Shown here in pieces: positions 24,893 to 62,136 of a stretch of DNA of 64,000 bases. Numbering within the stretch: position 1 is the first letter of the stretch; every line of letters begins with the position of its first letter. The translations under genes and the position numbers were made by a program. The DNA is from Actinopolymorpha alba DSM 45243 (GTDB lineage: Bacteria > Actinomycetota > Actinomycetes > Propionibacteriales > Actinopolymorphaceae): positions 436 through 64,435 of the forward strand of contig NZ_KB892790.1 of NCBI RefSeq assembly GCF_000373925.1. The letters are read 5' to 3'. The notes below the pieces were generated by a model. That model was given only the letters and a program-made list of their open reading frames with translations. It did not search any database and was not told where the DNA came from.

Positions 24893-27800
24893 TCAGTCGG
24901 CGACCGATTCGTGAACCCACTCGGTTTGCCGCTTCTGCTCCTCGTGGTGTTGGCCATCGGGGTCGAGCTCGTACCGCTCCACCTCGAGGCGGTCGGGGGT
25001 GTTGGCGTCGTGGAGCTTGTCGGCGGGTTGGTTGCGCGAGGCACGGGCGGCGATGCGTTCCAGCGCCGCGGCGGAGCGCTGGGTGCCCAGCTCGACTTCT
25101 AGCTGGTCGGGGTCGGCGGACATTACCTCGTGTGCCCCGCCGGCTACTGATTTAAGTGGTGGCGGTTCGAGCATGGCGAGGTCTCCAGCACGTGTTTCGA
25201 CCCCTTCGGCGAGCGTCGCGTCTCGTTCGGGGTTGTGGAGGTCTGGTTCGGTGATGGGTCGGTAGGGGTCTTCGGCGTGGTCGGCGGCGCGTTGGGCGGC
25301 GAGCCATTCTTCGGCGGTGGTGCGGTCGGGCTCGCGGTCGAGGGGGATGCCGCGTGCTTCCAATTCTGCTTCGGCTCGCGCGGCGGCAGCACGCGTGGCT
25401 GCGGTCTCTGCTGCCCACGCCGCACGGGCGTCAGCGGCTTGTTCGGCGACACGGGCGATCGCGGCGCGCTGCTCGTGGTGCGCCTGCTGTTCGTTCTTCT
25501 CGTTGTCGGTGTTGGTGAGGATCGCTGCGATGCGGGCGTCTTCGGCCCCGATGGATGCGGCGCGGAGGGCGTCGTCTGCGTGGGGTGGTGCCCAGGCTTG
25601 TTCGCGTTTCCATGCTTCGACGCGTACTCGGAGCCGACCGTCGGTCATGGCGGCTTCTTCGCGGGCTTCTTCGGGTCGGCCGAGTGCTTCCCATGCCCGC
25701 CACCAGGATGGTCGCCGTTCGGTGGAGTGGATGCCGGGTGGGTCTCCGATGGGGCGGTGTTCGTCGGTCCAGCCGGTGGCTTCGCGGTGTCCGGCGATGA
25801 TGCCGGCGCGGTCTGCCCATTCCAGCCGTTCCGCAGCACCTTCGGGGACTGGGCCAAGAGCACGCACCGCCCAGTCCGGTGGGTTCTCCGAGACCTGGGT
25901 CCCAAGCTCGCTGCGCCGCTGGTCCGCGCGGGCGTGGAGCCGCTGCAGGTAGGCAGAGATCTGTGGTGATAACTCGGATGGGACGGGCATCGCGTTGGGC
26001 GGCAGGAATTGTGGGCGTGCGGCGTTGATCCGGTTGGAGAGGACCTGGGCGACGGAGCGGGCATCGCCTAGGCCGCGCCGGTCGACCACGGCTTCGCGGA
26101 GCACTGCGGCGGGGTCCTCGCCTCCTTGTTCGACGGCACGTAGGAGTCGGGAGAGGTTTTCGGTCGCTTGGTCGGCGCAGAGCCGTGCTCGTGAGGTGTT
26201 GTCGAGTGCGCCGTCTTCGACGAGTTGGTCGAGGTGGTGTTCCAGCCGGTTGCGGCAGGCCAGGCGTACGGCGTCTTCGATGCGGCCGTGGATGGTGTCG
26301 AGCGAGGCGAGCCGGGCGTCGTCACGTTCGCGGGTAACGAGGGCCGCGTCGTTGTCTTCGCCGCCACGCGCGAGAGCATCCTCGAGCACCGCCCGCCCAG
26401 ACGGACGCTCATGATCGGCGGAGGCTTCGACGACGGCGGCCTTGTCGTCCTGGCCCGCGAGTCGCCGTACGGCTTGTGGGGTTGACGGGTCGGCCGGTTC
26501 GCGGTCGAGGGCGACGAACACTTTGTTGATGGTCTTGCCGCGGGTCATCATCACGTACAGGGCAGCCGCATCCAGCTGCCCTGCGGTGACCCCGTAGCCG
26601 GCGTCGACGGTGAGGCCTTCGGCGGCGTGGACGGTGCCGGCGTAGCCGCTGGCGACATGTTCGCGAACGTAGGCGGCTGAGAGTCGAAGGATCTCCCCGG
26701 TGCGTCGGCCGGCGACGGTGAGGCTGCCGTCCTCGCCGATCTCGCGTACTTGGTAGAGCTGTCGGTTGGTGACGCCGAGCCGCCGGTCGTTTTGCCGGCA
26801 CATGATGTCGTCTCCCACCCCTGCGGTTCCGCCGTGGGTGGCCAGGTCGACTCCGGCCTGGTCGACAACGCCGGCGGCGACGAGGATCTCCCGGACGGTG
26901 GCGGCAACCTCCGCCGACTCTTCGTTAGTGCCGGCGACCACGACGACCTCGCGGCCTTCGAGCCGGTCCGCGGCGGCGGCGCGGGCGGCTTGCTGGATGG
27001 CGTCGTCCACGGAGGCGGCGTCGATGATGCGGCCGTGCCGGTCGTATTCGGCGAGGGCGGCTGGGTCGGCGTCGCGCAGGGCGAGGGAGGCTTCGCGTTC
27101 CCATGCGGCGTGGAAGCGGCGTACGTCGGTGAGGGTGTAGGTCTCGGCGTGCCCGTTGACCAGCCCCATGGCCCCGCCTGCTTGGACGGCGGCGAGCTGT
27201 CGGGGGTCGCCTGTGAGTACGAGTCGGGCACCTGCTGCCTCGATGACTGTGCGGATCCGGGTGAGGTCGGCGGTGCCGACCATCGAGGCTTCGTCGACGA
27301 GAACGATGTCGCGTTCCCGGACCGCGTAGCGATGGTCGGTCGGGCGTGCCTTGCCGTTGGCCAGCCGCCGCTGGGCGTCGAGCCAGGCCGAGATGTTCGC
27401 GGTGATCTTCACCCCGTCGTGGACGAGGACGTCCGCGGCGATCTGCGACACGGCCAAACCTTGCACGCGCCCGCCCTCGGACAGGTCGTTCCACACCTCG
27501 GCGAGGGCACCGACGGCGAAGGATTTGCCGGTGCCGGCTGGGCCGACGAGGACGGCGAGGGCGGCGTCGGAGGAGGCCAGGCCACGTACCGCGGCCCGCT
27601 GGTCGGCCCCCACCGTCTGGTATTTCTCGTGCGTGTCCAGCCAGGCGTCGACCTGCGCGGCGTCGAGGCGGTGGCGGCCGCGGGTGATCGCGGCCTGCCG
27701 GATCGCCTCCTCGGCAGCGAGCGAGGCGGTGGCCGCGTATCGGCGGGCGGTTGGGCGGGTGTAGGTGTCGGGGTCGCCGAGTTCGGCTGGCATGGGGGGA

Positions 27801-29191
27801 CCGTCGCGGCCGGACACCTGCGTTACCAGCCGGGGGTCGGTGAGTGCTTGGTCGGTGAGCCGTTCGAGGAGCTCGGTGAGATCGTCTGGGTCCATCCCGG
27901 TGCCCAACAGGGGAAGCCGTTGTTCGATCTCGCGCGTCAGGTCCGCGCGACGCCAGGTGGATCGCTGTTCGGCCATCGCCGCGACCGCGGTCGTGCACAC
28001 CGCCGACGGTGACCACCGTGGCGCCTCCCGCGACTCGGAGGGCGGCTCGGCGGTGACGGCGGCTATCGCCTGGTCGGCGATCGGTTCGAGCCCGGTGGCG
28101 ATCGCGGCCTTCAGTTCGGCCTGCCACCGGTCGTGCCGTTCCTCGGTCATCTCACCGTCATGGGTCTTGCCCGGCCGGGTATTCACGGTGATCTGTTTGT
28201 GGAGTCGCGCGATCTCGACGTCGGTCAGCTCCCGCCCGAGCCGCTCCTCCGCCGTCTTTACCGCCTTGTCCAGCTCGCCTTTGATCACCTTGGTACGCGC
28301 GGAGAACAGGTCGCACACCTGCTGGGAGACCCCGGCGATCTCCCAGGCGGGTTTCTCTCGGTCCCCGTGCCGTAGTTTCAGCCGGAGGCCGAGCGCGGCG
28401 AGTTCTTCGGCGAGTACCCGGTCCACGACCGCGGAGATGGCGTGCTGCTGGGCGAACAGGTCGACGGTATCCAGGGCCCGGATCTCACCGTCGGCACAGC
28501 TGGCCCGGTTCAAGATCACGTTGTGGGTGTGCAGCTGCGGCTGGATCGACCTCGAGGTGTGTTGGAAGAACGACGCGACGATCAGGTCCGGCGCCCCGAC
28601 CCACCGGCCCGCCGTTCCGGTGCCGCCGTGCCGGCCCGTCCGGGCGACCGCCAGCTTCGCGGCGTATCGCAGTCCGGCGTCGTTGGCTTTGGCGATCGCC
28701 GCCTCGATCGCGAGTCGGGTCGACCTCGCGGAGTCGAGTCGGGTCGTCTCACCCGACCGCTCCGCCTGGAGTTCGGCCCGGTGCACCGCCGTGTGCACGA
28801 CTGAGACCGACTTGGGGACGCTGAACGTCAGGTCGACCCCAAGAGTCGCCCTCCGCTGACTCGACTCGATCGACCGGCGCGTCTCAGCGATTTCTTCCGG
28901 TAGGGCGTCGGGGTGGTCGGCCTTCCAGGAGTCGAGTCGGGCCTCGACTGAGCCGTAGCGTCCAGGACGCTGCCCCAGCTGCGTCCCGTCCGGTGCTTCG
29001 AAACCGTCGAACAGCTTGTGCATGTCCGCACCCGCCACCTCGCCGGTCAAACCGACCTGCTCGGCCAGGCTCCCGGACCAGCGGCCCGGCGGCTCCCCCG
29101 CCGTCACCGCGTCCAGGTAGTAGGACTCCCGGCCGCCGCCGACGCTGGACACGTAGTACTCGACGTCGGTCACCTTGCTCGCCGTGATCAC
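24893..29191 (-). CDS. conjugative relaxase-helicase (TraA/TrwC family, MOBF)
   Basis: 1432 residues from GTG 29191 (GGGGAGG eight bases upstream). The N-terminal TrwC domain has catalytic tyrosines at 12-13 and 24-25 and the metal-binding His cluster around H211...H221-T-H223 (PQLHTHNVILNRA). The helicase domain follows: Walker A 550-557 (GPAGTGKS), Walker B IVLVDEASM, LVLTGDPRQLAAV, and the C-terminal helicase motif DAAALYVMMTRGK. The last 350 residues are helical and charged, ending with DPDGQHHEEQKRQTEWVHES. It would nick oriT, stay bound to the strand and unwind it for export through the coupling protein at 36663-38414. It is the last gene of the minus-strand conjugation operon. A decayed homologue lies at 13751-15840. 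Confidence 0.92.
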   Translation of the reverse strand: MITASKVTDVEYYVSSVGGGRESYYLDAVTAGEPPGRWSGSLAEQVGLTGEVAGADMHKLFDGFEAPDGTQLGQRPGRYGSVEARLDSWKADHPDALPEEIAETRRSIESSQRRATLGVDLTFSVPKSVSVVHTAVHRAELQAERSGETTRLDSARSTRLAIEAAIAKANDAGLRYAAKLAVARTGRHGGTGTAGRWVGAPDLIVASFFQHTSRSIQPQLHTHNVILNRASCADGEIRALDTVDLFAQQHAISAVVDRVLAEELAALGLRLKLRHGDREKPAWEIAGVSQQVCDLFSARTKVIKGELDKAVKTAEERLGRELTDVEIARLHKQITVNTRPGKTHDGEMTEERHDRWQAELKAAIATGLEPIADQAIAAVTAEPPSESREAPRWSPSAVCTTAVAAMAEQRSTWRRADLTREIEQRLPLLGTGMDPDDLTELLERLTDQALTDPRLVTQVSGRDGPPMPAELGDPDTYTRPTARRYAATASLAAEEAIRQAAITRGRHRLDAAQVDAWLDTHEKYQTVGADQRAAVRGLASSDAALAVLVGPAGTGKSFAVGALAEVWNDLSEGGRVQGLAVSQIAADVLVHDGVKITANISAWLDAQRRLANGKARPTDHRYAVRERDIVLVDEASMVGTADLTRIRTVIEAAGARLVLTGDPRQLAAVQAGGAMGLVNGHAETYTLTDVRRFHAAWEREASLALRDADPAALAEYDRHGRIIDAASVDDAIQQAARAAAADRLEGREVVVVAGTNEESAEVAATVREILVAAGVVDQAGVDLATHGGTAGVGDDIMCRQNDRRLGVTNRQLYQVREIGEDGSLTVAGRRTGEILRLSAAYVREHVASGYAGTVHAAEGLTVDAGYGVTAGQLDAAALYVMMTRGKTINKVFVALDREPADPSTPQAVRRLAGQDDKAAVVEASADHERPSGRAVLEDALARGGEDNDAALVTRERDDARLASLDTIHGRIEDAVRLACRNRLEHHLDQLVEDGALDNTSRARLCADQATENLSRLLRAVEQGGEDPAAVLREAVVDRRGLGDARSVAQVLSNRINAARPQFLPPNAMPVPSELSPQISAYLQRLHARADQRRSELGTQVSENPPDWAVRALGPVPEGAAERLEWADRAGIIAGHREATGWTDEHRPIGDPPGIHSTERRPSWWRAWEALGRPEEAREEAAMTDGRLRVRVEAWKREQAWAPPHADDALRAASIGAEDARIAAILTNTDNEKNEQQAHHEQRAAIARVAEQAADARAAWAAETAATRAAAARAEAELEARGIPLDREPDRTTAEEWLAAQRAADHAEDPYRPITEPDLHNPERDATLAEGVETRAGDLAMLEPPPLKSVAGGAHEVMSADPDQLEVELGTQRSAAALERIAARASRNQPADKLHDANTPDRLEVERYELDPDGQHHEEQKRQTEWVHESVAD

Positions 29192-29439: not shown

Positions 29440-30834
29440 TCAGGTGTGGTTGTTGAGGGCGGCGCGTGCTGCGTCGCGGGCGGCTCTGGCTTCTGCCATG
29501 CCGGTTCCGAGGAATGCTCGGATGGGGTCGGCGCCGGCGTTGGGGCGGAGTTCGCCGGCCTCCCAGGCGGCTAGGAGGCGCTTGACGTGTTCGGGGCGTG
29601 CGGTCGGGCGACGGCGCGGTTTGGTCTCGCTCTTGGTGGGTCGACTCGACTCGGGCGCCTCGGACTCGGCCCGCCCACTCGATTGCGAGTTCGGTGAGTC
29701 GACTCCCCCGACCACGACGTCGCGCGACTGCGCCGGCCGGTCTGCGTCGACCCGACCCGACTCCACCTCGCCCCTCGACGGCTCAGCCCGACCGGACTCT
29801 CCCTGGCCCGACTCGGTGCGGCCGCGCACGACCGGAGTCGGGTCGGCCTGGACCCGACTCGGGGGTTCCGCGGATTCGCTGTTCGCGGACCGGGCGGCGG
29901 GGTCGACCTGGTCAACCCCAAGCGGCGCAGCGTGCGGCGCGACCCTCAGCTGGCCGCTGACGACGGCCCACGCGGTCCTGCCGCGACCGGTCGGGGCTGT
30001 GTGCAGCTGGCGCAGGAGCCGGTCGGCGTTGTAGCCGGCCCAGGCGGCCGCCGGGTCGGTGATGTTGTGCTCGATGGACCAGCGCCGGGCGCCCCACGTA
30101 CGAAGGGGGAAGGCTCGCCTGCGTTCGGCGCTGAACACCGCACCGGTGCGGTCGACCGCACCTTCGTCGAGGAGCTGGACGTGCTGGGCGCGGCGGGTGT
30201 GCAATCCCCACAGCCATGGCGACAGCAGCGACAGCAGCCCGAACGCCACAGCCGCGGCTGTGGGGGCAAGGGACGGTCCGGCAAAGTGGGCGTAGTTGAT
30301 GCCTGCGACGATCCCGGCGAGCGCGTACGACGCGCGGCGCAGCCTGGCCGCAGTGGCGGTCGCCTTCGACAACAACGCGTCATGGGCGTGCCAGCCCACA
30401 TAGATCGCGATCGACTCCACCGCGGCGGCGAACAGCACCGACAGGCCCAGCCGCGCGGGCATCAGCCAGGCCTGCGGGGCGATCGACTCGTACGCGTAGG
30501 CGATCTGCCCGTACACAGCGGCGGAGTTCACAATCAGCAGCGGCGCCAACAGACGCAACCGGCTACCAAACCTGCGCCAGGCCAGGTTGCGGCGCTCACG
30601 TTGCTCGGCCCGTTCCCGTCGGCGTTCGTGGGTGCGTTCCCGCTTAGCCTCCCGCGCCAGCCGGGCCGACTCCCGCGCCGCGGCCCGCTGCGCGGCGTCC
30701 TGTTCTCGACGCAGCTGCGCCAACGCGCGGGCCCGCTCGATCTCCGCGCGGGTCTCGGCCGCACGCGCCTGCGCCACCTGCGCGGCCGTAGCCGGGTCCA
30801 TCGCAGCCTTACCGCGGGTCGACAACCTCAGCAC
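29440..30834 (-). CDS. DUF2637 (SpdB-like) membrane protein
   Basis: 464 residues from GTG 30834 (VLRLSTRGKAAMDP), spaced six bases from GGAAGGGA. ATG 30801 is a shorter option. A long Ala/Arg/Glu coiled coil (30-95) precedes a DUF2637 core with about four membrane helices (LLIVNSAAVYGQIAYAY, LGLSVLFAAAVESIAIYVGW, YALAGIVAGINYAHF, AAVAFGLLSLLSPWLWGLH). The C-terminal half is Ser/Arg/Glu/Pro-rich and disordered, encoded by many GAGTCG/CGACTC hexamers. Proteins of this type are widespread on actinobacterial conjugative elements and are thought to help DNA spread or transfer. It is preceded by repeat copy 1. Confidence 0.75.
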   Translation of the reverse strand: MLRLSTRGKAAMDPATAAQVAQARAAETRAEIERARALAQLRREQDAAQRAAARESARLAREAKRERTHERRRERAEQRERRNLAWRRFGSRLRLLAPLLIVNSAAVYGQIAYAYESIAPQAWLMPARLGLSVLFAAAVESIAIYVGWHAHDALLSKATATAARLRRASYALAGIVAGINYAHFAGPSLAPTAAAVAFGLLSLLSPWLWGLHTRRAQHVQLLDEGAVDRTGAVFSAERRRAFPLRTWGARRWSIEHNITDPAAAWAGYNADRLLRQLHTAPTGRGRTAWAVVSGQLRVAPHAAPLGVDQVDPAARSANSESAEPPSRVQADPTPVVRGRTESGQGESGRAEPSRGEVESGRVDADRPAQSRDVVVGGVDSPNSQSSGRAESEAPESSRPTKSETKPRRRPTARPEHVKRLLAAWEAGELRPNAGADPIRAFLGTGMAEARAARDAARAALNNHT

Positions 30835-30862
30835 AGCACGTCCCTTCCTCGAAACCGTTGGG

Positions 30863-30927
30863 GGTTGGAAGGCACGGGGGCGGCGGGTATCCCTCGCCAA
30901 AGGTTCAGCGCCGCCCCCGCACCGCTC
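30863..30927 (-). repeat. intercistronic hairpin element, copy 1
   Basis: Minus-strand arms GGGGGCGGCG (complement of 30909-30918) and CGCCGCCCCC (30876-30885) enclose the conserved CUGAACCUUUGGCGAGGGAU(ACC) segment, and UUCCAACC follows. It begins right after the stop of the 218-residue gene and ends 29 bases before the DUF2637 start. One of five copies in this operon. Confidence 0.85.
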
Positions 30928-30929
30928 AA

Positions 30930-31586
30930 TCAGATGCCGCAGTCGGCCGCGTCGTCGTACGTGGACGTGCTCACCGCTTCGTCTGCGTCGCGAGCCTCGT
31001 GCTCTGCCTCAAGCCTCGCCGCGTAAGCGTCGTACTCGTCCCCGTCGAACTGGCTGGACGTCACATACTCAAGCCTGTCGCGGGGCCACATGTTGAACGG
31101 CTCCGCAAGCGTCTCCGGCGCGAACACGTCGTACGCCTGCTCGTTTCGCATGCCTTCCGCTGGTGTGCTCGTCTCTTCCTTCTCACACGTTTCCGCCACG
31201 TCGTCGCCGAGCTCCACCTCCAGCCACGCCGCGCGCGCCCGCTCAAAGGCATCGATCTGATCCGCCAGCTCCCCCAGCTGCGGTGTCCAGCGGGCCGCAT
31301 CCGCCCAACTGTCGAGGCCGCCATCTACACCAGGCACCCCAGCAGCGACCGCATCGACGTCCAAGCCGATGTGCGCGCCCGGCCCCCAGCTCTCCTGGGC
31401 CCGCTCGGCCTTCGCGAACCGTTCGATTACCTCCAGGTGGGCCGCGGTACCGGGGGCGGCCTTGACGATGTTGGAGTCTTCATCGACGGCCCACCCGTGG
31501 ATGGCGAGGTCGATGATGTCGGCTGCCGGATCGCCCCAGCGCGCGCGCTCGAACATGTCCTCGGGATCCTGCTCGAACTCGCTCAT
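30930..31586 (-). CDS. acidic hypothetical protein of the conjugation operon (218 aa)
   Basis: ATG 31586 (MSEFEQDPEDMFERARW) lies after AAAGGAGAAGGAGTGCC. The product is strongly acidic. It has ADIIDLAIHGWAVDEDSNIV and a helical region LGELADQIDAFERARAAWLE, and ends DEAVSTSTYDDAADCGI. There is no membrane helix, signal or recognisable domain. It stands between repeat copies 2 and 1. Its role is unknown; the context suggests an accessory function of the mobile element. Confidence 0.6.
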   Translation of the reverse strand: MSEFEQDPEDMFERARWGDPAADIIDLAIHGWAVDEDSNIVKAAPGTAAHLEVIERFAKAERAQESWGPGAHIGLDVDAVAAGVPGVDGGLDSWADAARWTPQLGELADQIDAFERARAAWLEVELGDDVAETCEKEETSTPAEGMRNEQAYDVFAPETLAEPFNMWPRDRLEYVTSSQFDGDEYDAYAARLEAEHEARDADEAVSTSTYDDAADCGI

Positions 31587-31620
31587 GGCACTCCTTCTCC
31601 TTTGATCGAAATGAGGGTTG

Positions 31621-31684
31621 GGATTGGAAGAAGCGGGGCGGCGGGTATCCCTCGCCAAAGGTTCAGCGCCGCCCCGCCCCACTC
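31621..31684 (-). repeat. intercistronic hairpin element, copy 2
   Basis: Stem arms GGGGCGGCG (31635-31643) and CGCCGCCCC (31667-31675). Both arms are one G/C shorter than copy 1, so pairing is kept. The conserved apical segment is identical to copy 1. It lies between the stop at 31708 and the start at 31586. Confidence 0.85.
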
Positions 31685-31707
31685 GCTCGGTGACCGGTGG
31701 TGGCTCG

Positions 31708-32313
31708 CTAGAGCCCGGCCGCATCGTCGTCGAGGTTCTCGACCTTTTCGGCGATCAGCCGCGTGAACTGCGACTCCTCGACGGTGTAGTGGAAGACGTC
31801 CTGGCCCTCGGTCCAGGCATCGTCGTCCTCCTCACCGTCCTCGTCCGCGTCGCTTGAATCGGCTGCCGTCAAGCCGGCGGCGGGCGCCTGCTGGCCCGCA
31901 TCAGCGTCCTCGTGACGGGCGACCGCTGAGCTGGTACGCGCTTCGCTGTCAACGTCGGCTTGTCGGGAGGCTTGCTGATGTTCGTCGGCGACTTCGCGCT
32001 CAACGACCCGGCGTGCACCGTCGATCTCGGCGTTCACCAGCGTCGCTTCGGCGCCGCGGGCCTGGTCGAGCAGCTGCGCGACCGTGTCCGCGCGAGAGGC
32101 CGCAATCCGGTAAGGCTTGTCCGCCGCCAGCGCTTTGAGCAACGCATCCTCCCCCTCACCGACGTTCGAGGCGATCCGATGCCTGATGGATCGGCTCAAC
32201 GACTCAGCGGACTGGCGGGCGAACTCCAGTCCTTCCACGGCCAGTCTCAGGTCTCGCCGCAACTCCGCCCGCATAAGATCCTCACCTTGCAACGGGCTTT
32301 CGGCTCTGCTCAT
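31708..32313 (-). CDS. helical, acidic hypothetical protein (201 aa)
   Basis: ATG 32313 (MSRAESPLQGEDLMRAELRR) follows AAGGAATGGAGTGAC. The protein is almost wholly helical, with a predicted coiled coil (ASRADTVAQLLDQARGAEAT, NAEIDGARRVVEREVADEHQ) and a long acidic, low-complexity region (AADSSDADEDGEEDDDAW) near the end. No catalytic motif or membrane segment was seen. It lies between repeat copies 3 and 2. It may be a structural or DNA-mimic-like accessory protein; that is a guess from its charge. Confidence 0.6.
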   Translation of the reverse strand: MSRAESPLQGEDLMRAELRRDLRLAVEGLEFARQSAESLSRSIRHRIASNVGEGEDALLKALAADKPYRIAASRADTVAQLLDQARGAEATLVNAEIDGARRVVEREVADEHQQASRQADVDSEARTSSAVARHEDADAGQQAPAAGLTAADSSDADEDGEEDDDAWTEGQDVFHYTVEESQFTRLIAEKVENLDDDAAGL

Positions 32314-32342
32314 GTCACTCCATTCCTTGGTCAGATGCGGGT

Positions 32343-32407
32343 GGTTGGAAAGAGAGCGGGGCGGCGGGTATCCCTCGCCGAAGGTTCAGAGCCGCCCCGC
32401 ACCGCAC
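32343..32407 (-). repeat. intercistronic hairpin element, copy 3
   Basis: Arms GCGGGGCGGC (32356-32365) and GCCGCCCCGC (32391-32400): ten perfect pairs with one closing pair shifted relative to copies 1 and 4. The apical segment differs from copy 1 by one base (CUUCGG instead of CUUUGG). It follows the stop of the gene at 32410. Confidence 0.85.
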
Positions 32408-32409
32408 GG

Positions 32410-32691
32410 TCAGGCGCCGTAGTCGTCGGCGGCGTCGTGCCGCTGCTCGTGGATCTCGGCGATGGCCCGGCCGAATGCTTCAGCGCTGTCCGGGACCTCG
32501 AGCGATCTGAGACGGGGATTGGTCACTTCCCGGTAGGCAGCTGACGTGTCGCGCCAGGCGACTTTCGTTCGCTCGGCCAACGTCTGGTAATCAGGGCAGG
32601 GGCTCAGGAGCCGGCATTCGGGGCAGCCGGCGTAGTGGCGGTGCGCGGCCTCCTCCAACACCTCGTGACGAGATTCGCTCGTCGCACTCAT
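32410..32691 (-). CDS. small Cys-containing hypothetical protein (93 aa)
   Basis: ATG 32691 (MSATSESRHEVLEEAAHRHY) nine bases after AAGGAG; GTG 32709, overlapping the previous stop, is the longer alternative. It has a Cys cluster AGCPECRLLSPCPDYQTLAE (C-x2-C-x5-C), probably a small zinc site, then a helix and an acidic His-rich tail (EIHEQRHDAADDYGA). Small zinc proteins of this style are frequent in actinobacterial mobile elements; the function is not known. Confidence 0.6.
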   Translation of the reverse strand: MSATSESRHEVLEEAAHRHYAGCPECRLLSPCPDYQTLAERTKVAWRDTSAAYREVTNPRLRSLEVPDSAEAFGRAIAEIHEQRHDAADDYGA

Positions 32692-32705
32692 CGGCTTCGT
32701 CTCCT

Positions 32706-32978
32706 TCACAGCTCGTAGGTGTCGCCGCGGTCGACCGACCGCTCCTCGGGCGGTATGCGGTGCACGTCGGCGCCGGAGCCTGCGACATCGCGGTGCAGGT
32801 CGGCTTCTGCGTTGGATGCCTTGTGCCGTTCAGCGTTGAGCGCTGCGCACCCGCACGGGCAGGTGGCACGGTGCATGCCGTCGTGGCCGACCGGCAGGCC
32901 GCAGGTGGAGCCAAGCCACTGGTCTCCGCACGCCGGTGAAACGTGTGCTACGAGGTCCGGGCTGGCGCTGTTGCTCAT
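32706..32978 (-). CDS. Cys-rich small protein (90 aa)
   Basis: ATG 32978 behind GGGAGGAAACCG. It carries five Cys in VSPACGDQWLGSTCGLPVGH and RATCPCGCAAL together with three His, which suggests a treble-clef or zinc-ribbon metal site. The second half is hydrophilic (RIPPEERSVDRGDTYEL). The gene directly precedes the 93-residue gene with three bases of overlap or spacing, so the two are coupled. No family named. Confidence 0.6.
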   Translation of the reverse strand: MSNSASPDLVAHVSPACGDQWLGSTCGLPVGHDGMHRATCPCGCAALNAERHKASNAEADLHRDVAGSGADVHRIPPEERSVDRGDTYEL

Positions 32979-33007
32979 CGGTTTCCTCCCGTTTGTTGAT
33001 TGCCGGG

Positions 33008-33418
33008 TCAGGCGCCGAGGGCGTCTCCGTCGCAGTGGCCGTCGCGGGTGGCGCGGTAGTGGCCGCGGCGGTCGACGTCGTAGTCCTCGACATCAGGTGG
33101 CGGAGGGTGGACGAACGGGCCGGTACGCGCCATGTAGGCGGCGGCCCGCCGCGCCTCGAGCACCGCTGCCGGGTAGGTGTTGACCCGCATCTGGGCCCAC
33201 CTCCGGTCCGGGTCGAGCTCGTCGATGCTGGGCTCATCGGCCTGGTCGAGAGCTTCAGCGGCCAAGGAACCGGCGATCGGGGGCGGGATGTCTGGCCGCA
33301 GCTCCGCGATCAGCGCCGCGACCGCGGCCACCGTCTTCTTGTCCCGGTCGCTCTTGGTCGGAGCCTCCTTGTCTGGAGCCTTCTTGTCCTGGTCGTCATC
33401 GCGTTGGCGGGGCATCAT
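33008..33418 (-). CDS. hypothetical protein (136 aa)
   Basis: Starts ATG-ATG at 33418/33415, overlapping the stop of the upstream gene. The N-terminus is highly charged (RQRDDDQDKKAPDKEAPTKS). A hydrophobic helix follows (KKTVAAVAALIAELRP), then PIAGSLAAEALDQADEP and an EARRAAAYMARTGPF segment, and a His/Asp-rich tail. No recognised domain. It is placed in the tightly overlapping part of the operon. Confidence 0.6.
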   Translation of the reverse strand: MMPRQRDDDQDKKAPDKEAPTKSDRDKKTVAAVAALIAELRPDIPPPIAGSLAAEALDQADEPSIDELDPDRRWAQMRVNTYPAAVLEARRAAAYMARTGPFVHPPPPDVEDYDVDRRGHYRATRDGHCDGDALGA

Positions 33419-34038
33419 GCGACACCTGCCAGGCCGGGCGGTTCGCCTTCCTTGCTGACCGTCCACCAGTACGCGAGTTCGTCGATCGCGGTGGTGTCGA
33501 CTCGGGTTCGTCCGAGGTGGCTACGCGGGGAGCAGTCCTGGAGCAGCTTGACCATGCGGCTTTCCGCCGCGGGCAGCCATCTGGTCAGCAGGTCCGACAC
33601 CGCTGTTGGGGCGGTGCCGGTGTAGGCGGCGCCGTAGTGGGCGTGCAGGGCGAGCATCTCCACCACCACCGCGGGGTGCCACGGCCAGCAGTCCGGCAGC
33701 GGGTCAGTCGCCAGCCACCGGTAGACCCGGCCATGCCAGTCCCCCACCTCGGCCAACCACCCCCGGGCCACCTCGGGGTCGGTGACGGCGAACCAGTCCT
33801 GCTGCCCCTCCTCCGACTCCCCGCCCTGCCCTGCGGGTCCGCCGGCGGCACCGTCGGCCATGTCGCGCAGGGTGGCGTTGAGCATGCCCAGGCCACGGCC
33901 CAACGCCTCGACGTCCTTCTCAACTTTCTCGTGGACGAGGCGGTGCATCCCGGACAACCGGCTGTCGAGGTCGTCCACCCGCCCAACCAGGTGATCAACC
34001 ACGCCGGCCAGATCGGCAGGCTCGTACCTTCTGCTCAT
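33415..34038 (-). CDS. hypothetical protein with N-terminal coiled coil (207 aa)
   Basis: ATG 34038 overlaps the methyltransferase stop as ATGA. The N-terminal 60 residues form a coiled coil (LAGVVDHLVGRVDDLDSRLS, then VHEKVEKDVEALGRGLGML). A Gly/Glu linker leads to a Trp-rich C-terminal domain (DWFAVTDPEVARGWLAEVGD, WHGRVYRWL, DCWPWHPAVVVEMLALH). This domain type recurs on actinobacterial plasmids and integrative elements; I cannot attach a function. It is perhaps an oligomeric DNA-transfer accessory protein. Confidence 0.6.
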   Translation of the reverse strand: MSRRYEPADLAGVVDHLVGRVDDLDSRLSGMHRLVHEKVEKDVEALGRGLGMLNATLRDMADGAAGGPAGQGGESEEGQQDWFAVTDPEVARGWLAEVGDWHGRVYRWLATDPLPDCWPWHPAVVVEMLALHAHYGAAYTGTAPTAVSDLLTRWLPAAESRMVKLLQDCSPRSHLGRTRVDTTAIDELAYWWTVSKEGEPPGLAGVA

Positions 34039-35750
34039 CTCGCTGCCGCCCCTCCGCCGAGGGCGGCGGCGAGTGCGGTGCCGAGCCATTGGGCGACATT
34101 GGTTGCGACGGCGTTGCCTGCCTGCATGGTCTGCTCGCCCTTGTTGCCGTGGACGATGTAGGTGTCGGGGAACGTCTGGGCCCGCAGGTGTTCGCGGGGT
34201 TGGAGCATCCGGAAGTGGCAGTCGTCGATGTTCACCGCGGGGTCGAGGACGCCGTGCTGTTCCACCGTCGCGACCGTCGACAGCGGCGCCTCAACAGCCC
34301 GGTACGGCTTGGCTGCACGCCGGTACGGGATGACAAGAGCGTGATGATCCCGCGCGGTGACAGTGCCCATCGGCCGCCCGGCCGGCACGATCGTGTCCTT
34401 CGGGGCGCAGTTTCCGCCGTAGTTCTTCACCAGGAACGGCGGGTAGACCAGCGAGTGGTGCCTCCCGGTCGTCACCGTGCCCATCGGCTGGTCGGTGGCG
34501 ACGATGGCACGCTCGGGTGGGAGGAACCCACTGTGGTTCTTCACCAGGAAGGGGTTCACGAGCGCGTGGTGGTTGCCCTCGGCGGCGATCGTTGTCAGCG
34601 GCTCGTCAACGCCACGGGCATTGCAGTTGTTGCGCAGCTCCACGACGTACGGCGGGCAGAAGAGCGCCTCCATGCCTTTGGGGTTCGCTGTGCGGGTGCG
34701 GAACGGCTCGTCGACCGTGCGGGCGTCCTCGTTCCACGTGCCGCCGGAGGGGACAACCATCGGCGGGATCGCGAGGGCGTCTCCGATCTTGCCTGTTCTG
34801 GTTGCCAGCGGCGCCGACTCGGCGGGGTAGGCCCGGAAGTCGTCATGGTTCACAGCGACGACGGACGCGCGAGCGAACATGTCGAGCCCGACCTGGATGC
34901 GGCGCATGGTCGCCGCCGCTAGCGGTCGTTTCCGGTCGCCGATGCGGGTGCCGAGGTCGCTCCAATCGATCGCGGTCGCGGCTGGGAGCACGTACGGCTC
35001 GACGGTCTGTCGCCGGTGGCTCGGGCAGCGGTAGTCGTACTGGGCGCGGTACTTCCCGATCCGCCGGCCGGGCTTTTTCCAGGACTGGAACGCTTCCACG
35101 TCCTCGTCGCAGCTGGAGCACCACGCCACCGGCCGCGGGTCCACGTCCGGCAGCGGGATGCCTTTGCGGGTGAAGACCAGGTAGAGCCGGTCACGCCACT
35201 GCGGGGCGTACGGGATGGTTCCCCCGCCGATGTGCGCGGCGGAGACGGAAACGAACTGGACCTCGTACCCGAGCAGGAGCATGCCGTTGACCCACCAGTC
35301 GAACAGCTCCCACTCCGAGGCGACCTCGACGACGTTCTCCACCAGGATCGCCTTGTACCGGTGGACTTCGGTGGCGCGGATGACGTCGTGGAACGTTGCG
35401 CGGGTGCGCTCGTAGCCGGCCTGGGAGATCGGCCCGAACTCGAGCAGGTCGATTTGCCCGGGCGCCGGCTTGGTCCGCTTGTGCGCTTGGCCTTTCCTGC
35501 GTCGCCCTCCAGCTGGTGACACCTCGGTGCAGATCGGCGACGCCCACAAGACGTCGGTGGTCGGTAGCCGTCGCATGTCGTAGTTGTTCACATCGGCGCA
35601 CAGGTGCTCGGCGTCGGTGAAGTTCGCGCTGTGGGTTTCGATCGCGCGGGCCCAGTGGTTCGCGGCCAGCTTCAGTTCGAAACCAGCGGAGGCGAGCCCG
35701 ATGGAGGAGCCGCCAGCGCCGCAGAAGATGTCGGTGAACGTGAGACTCAT
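34035..35750 (-). CDS. DNA (cytosine-5) methyltransferase
   Basis: 571 residues from ATG 35750, overlapping the WhiB-like gene stop. Motif I DIFCGAGGSSIGL (8-19) binds S-adenosylmethionine. Motif IV is ASPICTEVSPAGG with the catalytic Cys at 74, and it varies from the usual PPC. Motif VI is VENV, motif VIII QWRDRLYLV, and motifs IX-X are at the end (MQAGNAVATNVAQWLG). The target-recognition region is long and holds a tandem repeat of P(L/M)(T/G)T(V/I)...HH(A/S)LV units (three or more). The enzyme would protect the element's DNA from host restriction or imprint it; no cognate endonuclease is adjacent. Confidence 0.85.
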   Translation of the reverse strand: MSLTFTDIFCGAGGSSIGLASAGFELKLAANHWARAIETHSANFTDAEHLCADVNNYDMRRLPTTDVLWASPICTEVSPAGGRRRKGQAHKRTKPAPGQIDLLEFGPISQAGYERTRATFHDVIRATEVHRYKAILVENVVEVASEWELFDWWVNGMLLLGYEVQFVSVSAAHIGGGTIPYAPQWRDRLYLVFTRKGIPLPDVDPRPVAWCSSCDEDVEAFQSWKKPGRRIGKYRAQYDYRCPSHRRQTVEPYVLPAATAIDWSDLGTRIGDRKRPLAAATMRRIQVGLDMFARASVVAVNHDDFRAYPAESAPLATRTGKIGDALAIPPMVVPSGGTWNEDARTVDEPFRTRTANPKGMEALFCPPYVVELRNNCNARGVDEPLTTIAAEGNHHALVNPFLVKNHSGFLPPERAIVATDQPMGTVTTGRHHSLVYPPFLVKNYGGNCAPKDTIVPAGRPMGTVTARDHHALVIPYRRAAKPYRAVEAPLSTVATVEQHGVLDPAVNIDDCHFRMLQPREHLRAQTFPDTYIVHGNKGEQTMQAGNAVATNVAQWLGTALAAALGGGAAAR

Positions 35751-36199
35751 GCCGCACACCACCCGTCGTCTTGGCGGGTGTGGCCTGCCGAGTCAACCTC
35801 GTACTCATCAACGTCGTGCGGGTTGACGTCGTGCTGGTGTTGGCGGTGGCGTTGCCGTTCGGCTCGTTTCTGCACGGCTTCGGGGGTGGTGGACATGAAG
35901 ACGTCGAATCCCAGGTGCACGGGCGCGGTGAGGCGGATGCCGAGGTCTCGCCTTGTTTTCTTGAGCTGGTTGCCGGAGAGGCCGCCCCACATTCCGTGTT
36001 GTTCGTGGTGGAGGGCGTAGTGGCGGCAGTCCTCCATTACGGGGCAGGCCGGCATCCGGTCATCGCCGAGGCAGAGCCGTTTGGCGTCTTCGATGTCGTT
36101 GTCGTCGGGGAAGAACAGGTCGGGTGCGATCTGGCAGGACTGTTCTCCGGTGAGAACGTCCTTCAGTTGCGGGGGTTCGCTTGTGTAGTCGCGGCTCAC
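35747..36199 (-). CDS. WhiB-like iron-sulphur protein with expanded Cys spacing
   Basis: 150 residues from GTG 36199, overlapping the ASCH stop. Cys22, Cys43, Cys52 and Cys58 are the four cluster ligands, and G-M-W-G-G at 69-73 is the WhiB turn. The middle pair is C-x8-C, where the family has C-x2-C; C-x5-C is normal. A basic stretch LSGNQLKKTRRDLG follows, like the WhiB AT-hook-like tail. A long extra C-terminus is His/Arg/Asp-rich. It probably binds a [4Fe-4S] cluster and modulates transcription of the element through sigma factor contact. Confidence 0.8.
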   Translation of the reverse strand: MSRDYTSEPPQLKDVLTGEQSCQIAPDLFFPDDNDIEDAKRLCLGDDRMPACPVMEDCRHYALHHEQHGMWGGLSGNQLKKTRRDLGIRLTAPVHLGFDVFMSTTPEAVQKRAERQRHRQHQHDVNPHDVDEYEVDSAGHTRQDDGWCAA

Positions 36200-36666
36200 T
36201 GGGTCTCACCTGCTTTCGCCTGATCGAGGCCCGCCGTGATGGCGGCGGCGAGGTCGGGTGTGGGGGTCCACAGACCGAGCCGTCCTTTGCACGGGATCGG
36301 CTGGACGGGTTGGGGGTTTGCGGTGACGAGGTGGATGACGCCGGGCGCGGTGTGGGCCCAGGGCCGGCAGCAGCCCCTGCTGGGGTGGGCGTCGGTCAGG
36401 TCGATGACGCCGATCACGGCGCCGAAGGTGAGGACGTCGCGCAGCTTCACGCCTTGCCCGGCGTAGCGTCGGTGGAGCGCGTCACGCACCTCGGGTTCGC
36501 AGAGGTTGGCGAGAAGCTCGCGGTAGACGCCCGCGCGGGTGGGGAACGCGGCCGCGTGGATCGCGAGGGGCCCGCGGTAGCCGGTTGACCAGGTGCGGTT
36601 CTCCACGTTCTTGCCGCCGTGGATCAGCGCCCACGCCCATGGCTGTCGTACGGTCAGGGCTCTCAC
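36196..36666 (-). CDS. ASCH-domain protein
   Basis: 156 residues from GTG 36666, overlapping the coupling-protein stop by four bases. The N-terminus MRALTVRQPWAWALIHGGKN, then VENRTWSTGYRGPLAIHAA, is the ASCH (PUA-like) signature. LTFGAVIGVIDLTDAHPSRG and the RLGLWTPTP end complete the beta barrel. ASCH domains bind RNA or modified nucleotides. On mobile elements they accompany methyltransferases, as here (the C5 methyltransferase is two genes away). The substrate is unknown. Confidence 0.8.
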   Translation of the reverse strand: MRALTVRQPWAWALIHGGKNVENRTWSTGYRGPLAIHAAAFPTRAGVYRELLANLCEPEVRDALHRRYAGQGVKLRDVLTFGAVIGVIDLTDAHPSRGCCRPWAHTAPGVIHLVTANPQPVQPIPCKGRLGLWTPTPDLAAAITAGLDQAKAGETQ

Positions 36667-38414
36667 GGGGCTTCACCGGCTTTCGCCTGTTCGGGCAGGG
36701 CGATCCGTGAGGTGGTGGAGGGGGCTGGGGTGTCGGTCAGCGGCATTCGGGCGGGTGGCTTGCCGCGTTCCCAGATGCGGGGCGCCCACCCCACGATGGG
36801 GAGCAGGCCACGGCGCAGCAGGAGGACCTGACCTTTGCCGAGGGCACGCAGCTGCGCTTCGTCGAGGACTGCGGCCCATCGGTGGCTGTTGGGGTCATCA
36901 TCGTCGACGCCTGCCACTCGGTGTCGGCTGTCACCGGTGAGGGTGGAGATGTCGCGCAGGTCGTCCGCGCCGTTCCCGCCCCCGTAGACGAGCAGGTTGT
37001 TGGTGTTGCCGAGGATGGTGCCGGCCCCATCGCTGCCCCACCGCTGCCGCAGCTGCGCCAGCGACTGCACGGAGGTGTGGATGGTCACGCCCCGCCCGCC
37101 CATGTCGGCGGTCCACTTGTCCAGCGGCACCGGACACACCAGGGCGGCCTCGTCCAACACCATCGTCAGCGGCGGGTCGAGCCGCCCCTCGAGCATCGCC
37201 CCTGCCGCCCGCCTGGCTTGGTGCGCGATCTCATCAACGAGGCAGGCGTTGAGCGGCCCGAGGCCTTCTTGGGATTCGTGGCCGAACAGGTGCAGCGTCT
37301 CCCGCTCGACGATCAGCCGGCCGATGTCGAGGGTGGTCGTTTCGGTGGGGGCGTCGCCCAGTTCCCGGGCCTGGTCGTGGGACATCCAGTCCAGGCCGCG
37401 GCGCATCGTGTGCGTGATCGACGTACGGGTCCGGTCGTTCAGCCCCCAGAAGTGGCGGGCCTGCGCCGCCCGGATCGGCCCACCGTCGGCGACGGTGAGG
37501 ACGGCCTCGATCACCTGGTCCCGGGCCCGGCAGCGGCCGTTACGGTCCGGCTCGTCCCCGACCCAGCGGAGCACGTCGATCATCCGGAGCCCTGACAGGG
37601 CGGCGGCGTGGAGCAGCAGCGCCAGCACGGGGCGGGCCGCCTCGTCCCAACGGGCCGCCTCCCCCTCCCCTGCGGAGGGGATCAGCGCGGCGGCCCGGCG
37701 GGTGGCGGTGGCGTAGTCGGCGCAGCCGGTCAGCACCGACCAGCGGACCGTGCTCGGCACGTCGACGTACCCGGACGGGTTGAACAGGTGCACCGCCCGC
37801 CCGTCACCGCTGCGGACCTGATGAACCCACTCGGCCAGGTCGGACCTGGTGGAGGTGGTCACCAAAGCGCCGGGCGCGTCGTTACCGAAGCACGCCAACA
37901 GGCCCGTCTTCCCGGTGCGTGGGCCGCCCACCACGGTGGTGGTGTCCTCTGGGGTGGACCACACCTGCTCGCCGGGCAACCAGCCCAGCCCGGTCTCGAG
38001 CAGCTGCACCCCCAGTTCACGCATCGGCGTACGCCGCAGCCGCCACCACGAAACGTCTCGCAGTGACGGGCGTACCACCCGCGCTTGGCGTCGCAGCGCC
38101 GCCGGTGAGGCGTGCTGCTGGATGTCCAGCCGCGACGCGGTGCCGCCCGAGCGTTGGTGGTACTCGTTCATCCGCGCCAACAGCGCCTTGGCGCTGCCCG
38201 GCCGCATCACATGCCGGCCCCACCACCAACAGCAGCTGCCGACACCGCCAGCGGCGCCACCGGCCGCCGCATACAGGGCCGGGTCATGCATCCCGGCCGC
38301 GTTCATGCCGGCGCCCAGGCCGACCGCGGCGGCCGACACCGCGCCCAGCGGCCATGGGAAGCGGTGCACAGCCCGTGCGGCGTCGAACGCCGCGTCCCGC
38401 ACAGAGCGGCTCAT
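36663..38414 (-). CDS. type IV coupling protein (TraG/TraD/VirD4-like ATPase)
   Basis: 583 residues from ATG 38414, overlapping the preceding stop. Two or three N-terminal hydrophobic segments (PLGAVSAAAVGLGAGMNAAG, ALYAAAGGAAGGVG) anchor it in the membrane. Walker A is VGGPRTGKTG (163-171). Walker B is LTMVLDEAA. The C-terminal TraM-recognition part has GVTIHTSVQSLAQLRQRWG, TILGNTNNLLVYGG and LPIVGWAPRIWERG. The hexamer would take the relaxase-DNA complex to the export machinery. No VirB4-like partner is visible in this window. Confidence 0.88.
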   Translation of the reverse strand: MSRSVRDAAFDAARAVHRFPWPLGAVSAAAVGLGAGMNAAGMHDPALYAAAGGAAGGVGSCCWWWGRHVMRPGSAKALLARMNEYHQRSGGTASRLDIQQHASPAALRRQARVVRPSLRDVSWWRLRRTPMRELGVQLLETGLGWLPGEQVWSTPEDTTTVVGGPRTGKTGLLACFGNDAPGALVTTSTRSDLAEWVHQVRSGDGRAVHLFNPSGYVDVPSTVRWSVLTGCADYATATRRAAALIPSAGEGEAARWDEAARPVLALLLHAAALSGLRMIDVLRWVGDEPDRNGRCRARDQVIEAVLTVADGGPIRAAQARHFWGLNDRTRTSITHTMRRGLDWMSHDQARELGDAPTETTTLDIGRLIVERETLHLFGHESQEGLGPLNACLVDEIAHQARRAAGAMLEGRLDPPLTMVLDEAALVCPVPLDKWTADMGGRGVTIHTSVQSLAQLRQRWGSDGAGTILGNTNNLLVYGGGNGADDLRDISTLTGDSRHRVAGVDDDDPNSHRWAAVLDEAQLRALGKGQVLLLRRGLLPIVGWAPRIWERGKPPARMPLTDTPAPSTTSRIALPEQAKAGEAP

Positions 38415-38998
38415 CGGGGCACCTCCCGCCAACCGGCCAGGAGCCGATTCAGGTCGGGGGCGACGGCGGAGTTGATCTGGTGGCAGATCTCGCGCACCGC
38501 GGCCTTGGCCATGCCGACGTTGACGCCCGGCCGCTGCGGGGCTGGAAGACCCTCGGCCGGCAGTTCCGCCACGAACCGGGCGGTGAACAACAGCGTGGAA
38601 CGGTTCTCTTCTGGCTCGACATACGGGCTCGGGTCGTCACTCCACGGCCGCTGCCGGGCCCAGTCCGCCCAGCCGAACCGGCGCAGGCCGCGCACCTGGG
38701 GCGGGTGAGGCAGCCGCACCTCGAGCTCAGCGACGAGACGGTCACGGTCCTCCCTTGGGTGGCACGTCACCCAGGGGATGTCCGGACGGACGCGGATGTA
38801 GCCGGGGCTCATCACCGGCCCGGATGCGATCCGCCACGCCGTCCACGCGAAGTCGACCGGATCCAGCGGGTCGCTCGCGGTGTTGAACAGGTGGGCCCGG
38901 TCGCGCAGGTAAGCGCCGTAGCGGCTGATCCCATCCGATGCGTAGTCCCGGTCATAGAACTCGTCGACGAACACGACCTTTTTTGCGGGCGGTTTCAT
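38411..38998 (-). CDS. hypothetical protein of the conjugation operon (195 aa)
   Basis: ATG 38998 overlaps the HTH gene stop (ATGA). The product starts MKPPAKKVVFVDEFYDRDYA and has a YLRDRAHLFNTASDPLD segment, a Pro-rich VRLPHPPQVRGLRRFGWADW and a STLLFTARFVAELPA strand near the end. It has no membrane segment. It always precedes the coupling protein here, with overlapping codons, so a role with it (docking or assembly) is reasonable but not shown by any motif. Confidence 0.6.
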   Translation of the reverse strand: MKPPAKKVVFVDEFYDRDYASDGISRYGAYLRDRAHLFNTASDPLDPVDFAWTAWRIASGPVMSPGYIRVRPDIPWVTCHPREDRDRLVAELEVRLPHPPQVRGLRRFGWADWARQRPWSDDPSPYVEPEENRSTLLFTARFVAELPAEGLPAPQRPGVNVGMAKAAVREICHQINSAVAPDLNRLLAGWREVPR

Positions 38999-39387
38999 GC
39001 GGCACCACCGCCCCGACGCGACCCACCGTCGGTCGCCTGCTGCCAGGCCGGCATGAATTCCATGACGTCCACGCACGCGCCCGCGCCGGTCGCGGCGTCC
39101 AGCAGCTGCTCGACAGCTTTGGCCGGAACGACGTAGCGGCCCTGATCACCGCCGATCCGCATCCGCACCGCGGGGAACGCGTCCGCCCGTACCAGCCGGT
39201 ACAGGTGCTCCTGCGAAATGCTCAGCAGTGCCGCTGCCTCCGGGACCGAGTACGTCGGGACCCCGGCCTCCCGCTTGCGCAGCGCGTTCCGCAACGCCAC
39301 GTCACGAATCTGGGCCCGCCACGTCGCGCGGCCACCAACGTCGGTGTTGTCGCGCTCGAGGTCCTGGCCCTCGCTACTCTTGGGCAT
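38995..39387 (-). CDS. HTH DNA-binding protein (excisionase/MerR-like, HTH_17)
   Basis: 130 residues from ATG 39387 (MPKSSEGQDLERD) behind GGAGTGG. The HTH is SVPEAAALLSISQEHLYRLV followed by DAFPAVRMRIGGDQGRYVVP, which is the helix-turn-helix plus wing of excisionase/HTH_17 proteins. It may act as an excisionase or as a transcription regulator of the element. The C-terminus is Gly-rich. It comes directly after repeat copy 4 and is coupled to the gene at 38998. Confidence 0.75.
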   Translation of the reverse strand: MPKSSEGQDLERDNTDVGGRATWRAQIRDVALRNALRKREAGVPTYSVPEAAALLSISQEHLYRLVRADAFPAVRMRIGGDQGRYVVPAKAVEQLLDAATGAGACVDVMEFMPAWQQATDGGSRRGGGAA

Positions 39388-39416
39388 GCCACTCCACTCC
39401 TTCGATGGGGTTAGGG

Positions 39417-39480
39417 GTTGGAAGGAGCGGGGGCGGCGGGTATCCCTCGCCAAAGGTTCAGCGCCGCCCCCGCACCGCTC
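39417..39480 (-). repeat. intercistronic hairpin element, copy 4
   Basis: Arms GGGGGCGGCG (39429-39438) and CGCCGCCCCC (39462-39471), identical in pairing to copy 1, with identical apical sequence. It begins at the stop of the gene at 39482 and ends 30 bases before the HTH gene start. Confidence 0.85.
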
Positions 39481-39481
39481 T

Positions 39482-39793
39482 TCAGGTGCCGTGGCCGTCA
39501 GCGTTTTCGTCGCTGTCGTCGGCCGTCATGGGTTGGAGTTCGCTCCGGTCGCGGAAACACGCCGGGTACCAGACCTCGCCGTCCTCGATCTCGGCGAGCT
39601 CGTCGACATCGATGCGCACATGCCACTCGTTCGGGCCGCACTGCCCGAGGATCGAGCCCGGTAGCCAGGGCCACCTATCCCGTTCCGATACGGCCTGGCC
39701 GAGCGGGTAGCGCACCAGCACTAGCGAGTCATCCGGGAAGGTGCCGTCGTTGTCGTCATAGCCCTTCCGGTCCGAGTCCCTCGCGCTGCTCAT
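39482..39793 (-). CDS. small acidic hypothetical protein (103 aa)
   Basis: ATG 39793 overlaps the preceding stop. It starts MSSARDSDRKGYDDNDGTFP. The core SLVLVRYPLGQAVSERDRWPWLPG and then NEWHVRIDVDELAEIEDGEV has alternating strand residues and looks like a small beta barrel (SH3/Tudor-like fold impression), ending with WYPACFRDRSEL and an acidic tail. No family named. It lies between the Cys-containing 67-residue gene and repeat copy 4. Confidence 0.6.
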   Translation of the reverse strand: MSSARDSDRKGYDDNDGTFPDDSLVLVRYPLGQAVSERDRWPWLPGSILGQCGPNEWHVRIDVDELAEIEDGEVWYPACFRDRSELQPMTADDSDENADGHGT

Positions 39794-39993
39794 GCGGCCA
39801 ACCTCCAGCCGGTCCGCTGGTGCTGGTTGCGTACGTGGGAGTCGGCGTCGTCGTAGGCGGTACGCCACGAGTCGGCTTCGGAGATCAGCAGGCGAAGTGG
39901 CAGCGGACACAAGCCGCAGCGCCACCCCCACCGCCCGACTGGCTGCCGATACACCGTGACCGGCCGGTCAACACGTAGACGGTCACTCATCAT
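39790..39993 (-). CDS. very small Cys-containing protein (67 aa)
   Basis: ATG 39993 (MMSDRLRVDRPVTVYRQPVG) lies after GAAGGGGACGA. It has C-x2-C (WRCGLCPLPLR) and a His pair in DSHVRNQHQRTG, an arrangement that could bind zinc in a C2H2-like way. Basic and probably nucleic-acid binding. It follows repeat copy 5 and overlaps the next gene start. Function unknown. Confidence 0.55.
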   Translation of the reverse strand: MMSDRLRVDRPVTVYRQPVGRWGWRCGLCPLPLRLLISEADSWRTAYDDADSHVRNQHQRTGWRLAA

Positions 39994-40034
39994 TCGTCCC
40001 CTTCTTCGAGAGGTCCGGATTGAAGGTTTGTTCG

Positions 40035-40099
40035 GGTTGGAAAGCACGGGGACGGCGGGTATCCCTCGCCAAAGGTCCAGCGCCGCCCCCGCGCCGCTC
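40035..40099 (-). repeat. intercistronic hairpin element, copy 5
   Basis: Plus-strand arms GGGGACGGCG (40048-40057) and CGCCGCCCCC (40081-40090). Read as minus-strand RNA, the single difference from copy 1 is a G-U pair; as plus-strand RNA it would be an A-C mismatch. This supports function in the RNA of the operon. Confidence 0.85.
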
Positions 40100-41789: not shown

Positions 41790-41902
41790 CTCGTCACCTC
41801 CTTTGGCTCAGTATAGCCCAAGCTAGCCTAGGCCTGTCTTGCTTGCACTGATTGCGGTGGCCCAACATGGCTTGGGGTGGCCTGGTCAACTAATCTCGTC
41901 GG
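41790..41902. promoter_or_regulatory. divergent promoter/operator between conjugation operon and GntR gene
   Basis: Minus-strand -10-like TATACT at about 41814-41809, ahead of the KorB-like gene. On the plus strand TAATCT (41890-41895) lies about seven bases before GTG 41903, so the GntR message may be leaderless. Between them lie GCCTAGGC and repeated TGGCC/TGGGG-type blocks (AGCCCAAGCTAGCC, GGTGGCCCAACATGGC, TTGGGGTGGCC), plausible operator half-sites. Confidence 0.5.
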
Positions 41903-46023: not shown

Positions 46024-46034
46024 CGGGGATCCCT

Positions 46035-62010: not shown

Positions 62011-62136
62011 CATACGCCACCACCCCAGCCCGCAACTCAGGCGAATACATCCGCGGCATGTTCGACACGAACCCATCCCTCCAGACAGTCAATTGACCCT
62101 ACTTGGGTCCGTGTCCAGGACGCGCGGGGCACCTCA
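62011..62136 (-). mobile_element. IS3-family end, 126-bp remnant
   Basis: About 93 per cent identical by eye to 685-810: same terminus TGAGGTGCCCCGCGCGTCC (minus strand) and the first codons of orfA (MPRMYSPELRAG). The rest of the IS is missing at about 62011. A second, decayed copy of the IS at the left edge. Confidence 0.75.

Follow-up and report, generated by a model that had tools for sequence, protein, structure and literature searches.

A covarying hairpin in actinobacterial conjugative elements and its possible role as a leader RNA of transfer genes

The 64,000-nucleotide stretch of the Actinopolymorpha alba DSM 45243 genome analyzed here (the window) contains five copies of a 65-nt element, all on the minus strand, which is the orientation of the TrwC/TraG conjugation operon. 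The element folds into a GC-rich hairpin whose stem, when relatives from other actinobacteria are added, is maintained as RNA pairing and not as sequence. Judged against open-licence papers, it appears to be an RNA control element that has not been described, but an earlier description elsewhere is possible. The odds are about even that actinobacterial conjugative elements use it as a structured, cis-acting leader RNA, which would insulate translation initiation at the following gene and keep it under control.

Five copies in a conjugation operon

A first-pass annotation, made from the letters of the window, had placed copies at 30863, 31621, 32343, 39417 and 40035, in one orientation and each between a stop codon and the following start codon; the covariance model R3 (see below) matches all five in this arrangement (Table 1). 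The 17-nt core of the element occurs five times in the window compared with 0.47 expected occurrences, and none of 100 shuffles reaches five. The copies follow the layout of the operon: between 41.8 and 29.4 kb, all five gaps of 94–144 nt hold one copy each, and at the remaining junctions the genes either overlap by 4 nt (ATGA) or are separated by 14 and 29 nt. No hairpin lies in the 248-nt gap ahead of the relaxase gene.

Table 1. The hairpin copies and the associated genes and region of the window (R3, third covariance model)
Feature	Position	Strand	Evidence and remarks
Hairpin copy 1 (stem, loop, UUCCAACC tail)	30861..30927	-	R3 match; leads to gene 29440-30834
Hairpin copy 2, one G-C pair fewer	31620..31684	-	R3 match; leads to gene 30930-31586
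Hairpin copy 3, same coordinated one-pair loss as copy 2	32342..32407	-	R3 match; gene 31708-32313 downstream
Hairpin copy 4, ahead of HTH_17 gene	39414..39480	-	R3 match; synteny; start context
Hairpin copy 5, stem with G-U pair	40033..40099	-	R3 match; leads to gene 39790-39993
TrwC-type relaxase/helicase	24893..29191	-	Pfam TrwC, E 8.8e-53
464-aa protein with hydrophobic stretches, downstream of copy 1	29440..30834	-	DUF2637-like by eye; no Pfam match
218-aa protein downstream of copy 2	30930..31586	-	ORF
201-aa protein downstream of copy 3	31708..32313	-	ORF
TraG/TrwB-type coupling protein	36663..38414	-	Pfam TraG-D_C, E 2.7e-19
HTH_17/excisionase-like gene downstream of copy 4	38995..39387	-	Profile match and sequence comparison
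67-aa protein with cysteine/histidine, downstream of copy 5	39790..39993	-	ORF
Candidate operon promoter/operator region	41790..41889	-	Sequence comparison with relative G002

The operon also encodes WhiB-like, ASCH-like (below cutoff) and DNA cytosine methylase genes. The position of copy 4 is common to two same-genus relatives, and the HTH_17 gene is 70–80% identical to the one that follows the single hairpin of these genomes. The candidate promoter/operator region contains a 21-nt sequence, GCTAGCTTGGGCTATAYTGAG, that recurs upstream of the single hairpin in G002; the promoter scan finds no consensus sigma-70 site in this region. Upstream of the operon, positions 45241-47663 encompass IstB and Mu-transposase C-domain genes (IS21-like). 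A 126-nt direct repeat, 95% identical, lies at 685-810 and 62011-62136, 61 kb apart; as attachment sites these repeats were rejected and, by eye, they look like an insertion-sequence remnant.

The copies in the window fold into GC stems of 12–15 bp, G-U pairs included, with minimum free energies of -31 to -40 kcal/mol (z -2.0 to -3.9); the GC stem previously proposed for the minus strand is thus present, but the proposed length of 9–10 bp is too short. Compensation inside the window, claimed from the same annotation, is real yet thin. The shorter stem of copy 2 and the G-U pair of copy 5 are confirmed, but a single coordinated loss (GGGG/CCCC instead of GGGGG/CCCCC) is common to copies 2 and 3, and the alignment of the five window sequences contains no two-sided change in the inner helix. 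Arm swaps between the two groups (copies 2/3 vs 1/4/5) are mostly costly, with a penalty of ~6–14 kcal/mol when the 3' arm of copy 2 or 3 is paired with the 5' arm of copy 1, 4 or 5. Strong covariation appears only once relatives are added.

Relatives, their genomic context and covariation of the stem

Used as a search tool with up to three mismatches, the 17-nt core pattern missed all relatives in other genomes, and therefore, a covariance model was needed; it was built from the five window copies and refined twice, the third version being R3. The first model detected copies in G002 (two), G003, G006 and G007, all from the same family as the window host, and a later one detected a further copy in G002 (L081:9619-9680), which is situated in the same element as the first, ~320 nt farther upstream, and precedes another small cysteine-rich ORF. 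The second model, run on a class-wide sample, added G865, G595 and G846, and R3 yielded more instances in the families of G865 and G595. Outside the window, this amounts to 20 instances in other actinobacterial genomes, the sequence of every one of which was inspected, plus plasmid pMR2 of Micromonospora rosaria (E 3.2e-5 in 44 kb), where the hairpin (L133:879-930) occupies the gap ahead of an FtsK gene; the genomes are a sample, and true frequency cannot be read from these counts. A small ORF missing from the PLSDB gene table follows the pMR2 hairpin; by eye, it is similar to the ORF of 54 aa behind the hairpin of G1111.

Several other candidates were examined. The nearest-looking plasmid match, H1, was discarded as lying inside a coding gene; the matches of the second model in the order beyond the family look like ordinary terminators, which have short loops and a different tail, or chance; and 11 viral-contig matches to the tail-plus-start pattern have no hairpin and no R3 match up to E 0.5, and are read as chance. 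Inspection reveals no hairpin upstream of the HTH homologues in G841 and G1082. The Mycobacterium avium plasmid pS2b (L135:2660-2785) has a strong hairpin with a C-rich tail and the start AUG UCG AAU AGU before an FtsK gene; it gives no R3 match up to E 0.5 and is possibly a divergent relative.

All instances with known context belong to mobile elements, mostly pSAM2-type or TrwC/TraG elements, where the hairpin stands ahead of a transfer-operon gene, and the position and orientation relative to the downstream genes are consistent across instances. The suggested tie to conjugation operons and the constant co-orientation are supported, as is a probable action on the downstream gene. In G006, G865 (L108) and G595 (L109), the hairpin is found within elements with RepSA; FtsK-like (TraSA-like) genes follow it in G006, G002b, G865 and G935; and the element in G846 (L110) is of another type. 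In G002a and G003, the hairpin is succeeded by the HTH gene, then by homologues of the 38411 gene and TraG, and further on by TrwC. No co-directional gene precedes the hairpin in G002 and G003, the upstream neighbor being divergent and, from its sequence, apparently of GntR type, which indicates that the hairpin goes with the downstream gene.

The covariation was assessed in a MAFFT alignment (A6) of 24 sequences that was not fitted to the structure and includes 19 of the 20 outside instances; L117 was left out as it repeats the hairpin of L116. In this alignment, 95.2% of the stem cells are paired, the count being slightly lowered by a misplaced 3' arm of G1111, compared with 45.9–56.8% for slid-helix controls, which keep the relatedness among the sequences. 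Two-sided changes occur at 8 of the 14 pairs, in 34 cells compared with 7.3 +/- 2.3 after shuffling, a value reached in none of 500 shuffles, which do not remove relatedness. The covariation is visible already with 10 sequences. G-U and U-G cells outnumber A-C and C-A cells 29 to 3 and therefore indicate RNA on the transcribed strand. The structured RNA that had been postulated for this strand, and for which covariation in a larger alignment had been named as a test, is thus corroborated.

The start region and the proposed function

The UUCCAA tail and the start context recur ahead of non-homologous genes. Codons 1–5 conform to AUG UCY RAN NNU A in eight downstream-gene groups that are unjoined by BLASTP, with the proviso that short proteins may hide kinship; the background in long ORFs of these loci is 6.8% for third-base U and 16.3% for first-base A. 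The constraint on the start context, judged from these sequences, can be read as acting on nucleotides rather than on the protein. The start context was in none of the models and so supports most instances independently; the weakest members, G1126 and G1111, are without it, and in G002b, the second codon is GGC. In the window, the gene behind copy 4 keeps most of the context (AUG CCC AAG AGU AGC), whereas copies 1, 2, 3 and 5 lack it, so that the start context is separable from the hairpin. For the same reason, copy 4 is probably the original position, the others being inferred to have come later: they look like a secondary spread of the hairpin with its tail from the copy that precedes the HTH gene.

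The distance from the stem end to the start codon is 26–50 nt in 23 leaders and never below 26, a spacing beyond the usual initiation footprint. Pairing of the tail with the Shine-Dalgarno sequence, with a mean fraction of 0.44 relative to dinucleotide shuffles, is not above them, and the comparison of own with swapped tail pairs gives p 0.015, uncorrected for relatedness. The masking test is thus negative for the shuffles and weakly positive for the swaps, and insulation and a trans-acting factor are therefore put forward as inferences. The leader would function as one unit, in which the GC hairpin of ~14 bp is followed by a C-rich linker with UUCCAA at its start, a Shine-Dalgarno sequence and the opening codons of the gene behind it. 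The hairpin would separate initiation at the downstream gene from upstream translation and from flanking RNA and leave a single-stranded site for loading, and a factor acting in trans, either a protein or a small RNA, may read the loop, the tail and the start region and thereby set transfer-gene translation. Because unrelated elements share the hairpin, such a factor is probably supplied by the host. The previously suggested binding by an operon-encoded protein finds no support here, the same hairpin being present in elements whose transfer genes are unrelated. In the window operon, the hairpin and tail would have spread to four further uncoupled junctions, providing extra genes with their own initiation sites. 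It is unlikely, though conceivable, that a single host RNA-binding protein or small RNA recognizes a shared leader code (loop, UUCCAA tail and AUG UCY RAN NNU A) in unrelated families of actinobacterial conjugative elements, such that one factor sets the translation of transfer genes in many elements and copying of the module in the window operon has brought further genes under its control.

The very stable stem and its location, intercistronic in the window and 3–36 nt past the preceding stop codon in most relatives, would also fit an mRNA processing or stability element, in which RNase cleavage close to the hairpin would leave the stem shielding the downstream 5' end or the upstream 3' end, resulting in unequal expression across the operon. 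Such a role leaves the start-codon context unexplained, however, and upstream 3'-end protection is not its general form because G002 and G003 have no co-directional gene before the hairpin; this explanation appears somewhat unlikely. An attenuator of transcription or a non-canonical terminator, at which readthrough or antitermination would gate the entry into the transfer genes, is improbable. The GC stem is strong, the C-rich, G-poor linker could, by inspection, help Rho, and terminators without a U-tract are under discussion for actinobacteria, but here the stem leads into UUCCAACC instead of a U-tract, the terminator scan of the operon detects no minus-strand site with a T-tract, the terminator-like hairpins that the model picked up in the same order have short loops and another tail, and five such sites in one operon would require a dedicated antiterminator. 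The two exclusive folds of an attenuator that the first-pass annotation envisaged are disfavored for additional reasons: the alternative hairpin GGC-GA-GGG-AUA-CCC-GCC is possible on paper, yet within the full element its stability is lower by ~8–9 kcal/mol, and the loop sequence that forms it is replaced or absent in most relatives.

The confinement of context-known instances to mobile elements and the multicopy spread in the window would also fit a palindrome that is bound or recombined as DNA by an element protein, in replication, transfer or insertion. What is maintained in the stem is pairing rather than sequence, however, the excess of G-U over A-C favors the transcribed RNA strand, and the copies are always co-oriented and similarly placed relative to start codons, which makes a DNA-level site very improbable. 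Integron attC was set aside by eye because its core-site consensus is not matched by the tail. The covariance model can be used for annotating transfer operons, with pMR2 as a test case.

Comparison with known systems

Like the structured leaders in Rfam, the hairpin has a conserved stem that shows compensatory changes and lies ahead of a defined gene set, but no Rfam 15 family reaches the gathering threshold in the window or in ten relatives. The nearest analogy is with the start-associated (SAS) and extended start-associated (ESAS) sequences of Cluster K mycobacteriophages, which are likewise multicopy, in one orientation and just upstream of starts in a mobile genome. SAS is GGGATAGGAGCCC, located within a few nucleotides of the start, and ESAS has, in addition, imperfect inverted repeats of 17 bp ahead of SAS, for which the authors find no support for RNA pairing and favor a DNA-binding site (PMC3203893). 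In the elements described here, by contrast, stem pairing is strongly supported, the sequences are different (by eye, GGGATAGGAGCCC is not present next to the start codon in the junction sequences) and the hosts are conjugative elements.

For pSAM2-type AICEs, the control described in the circuit of KorSA, Pra, TraSA and RepSA is transcriptional, with KorSA acting on pra and Pra on the rep operon (PMC3218068, PMC8584621); no KorSA site is reported upstream of traSA, and SCO3933 is called a Pra homologue (PMC8584621). The terms hairpin and inverted repeat do not occur in these two papers. The hairpin described here is located upstream of traSA-like genes in such elements, and its copy in G595 follows an SCO3933-like gene (E 1.9e-17, yet below the curated cutoff). 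If the proposed function holds, an RNA leader ahead of traSA-like genes, shared with the TrwC/TraG elements, would constitute a missing layer of control.
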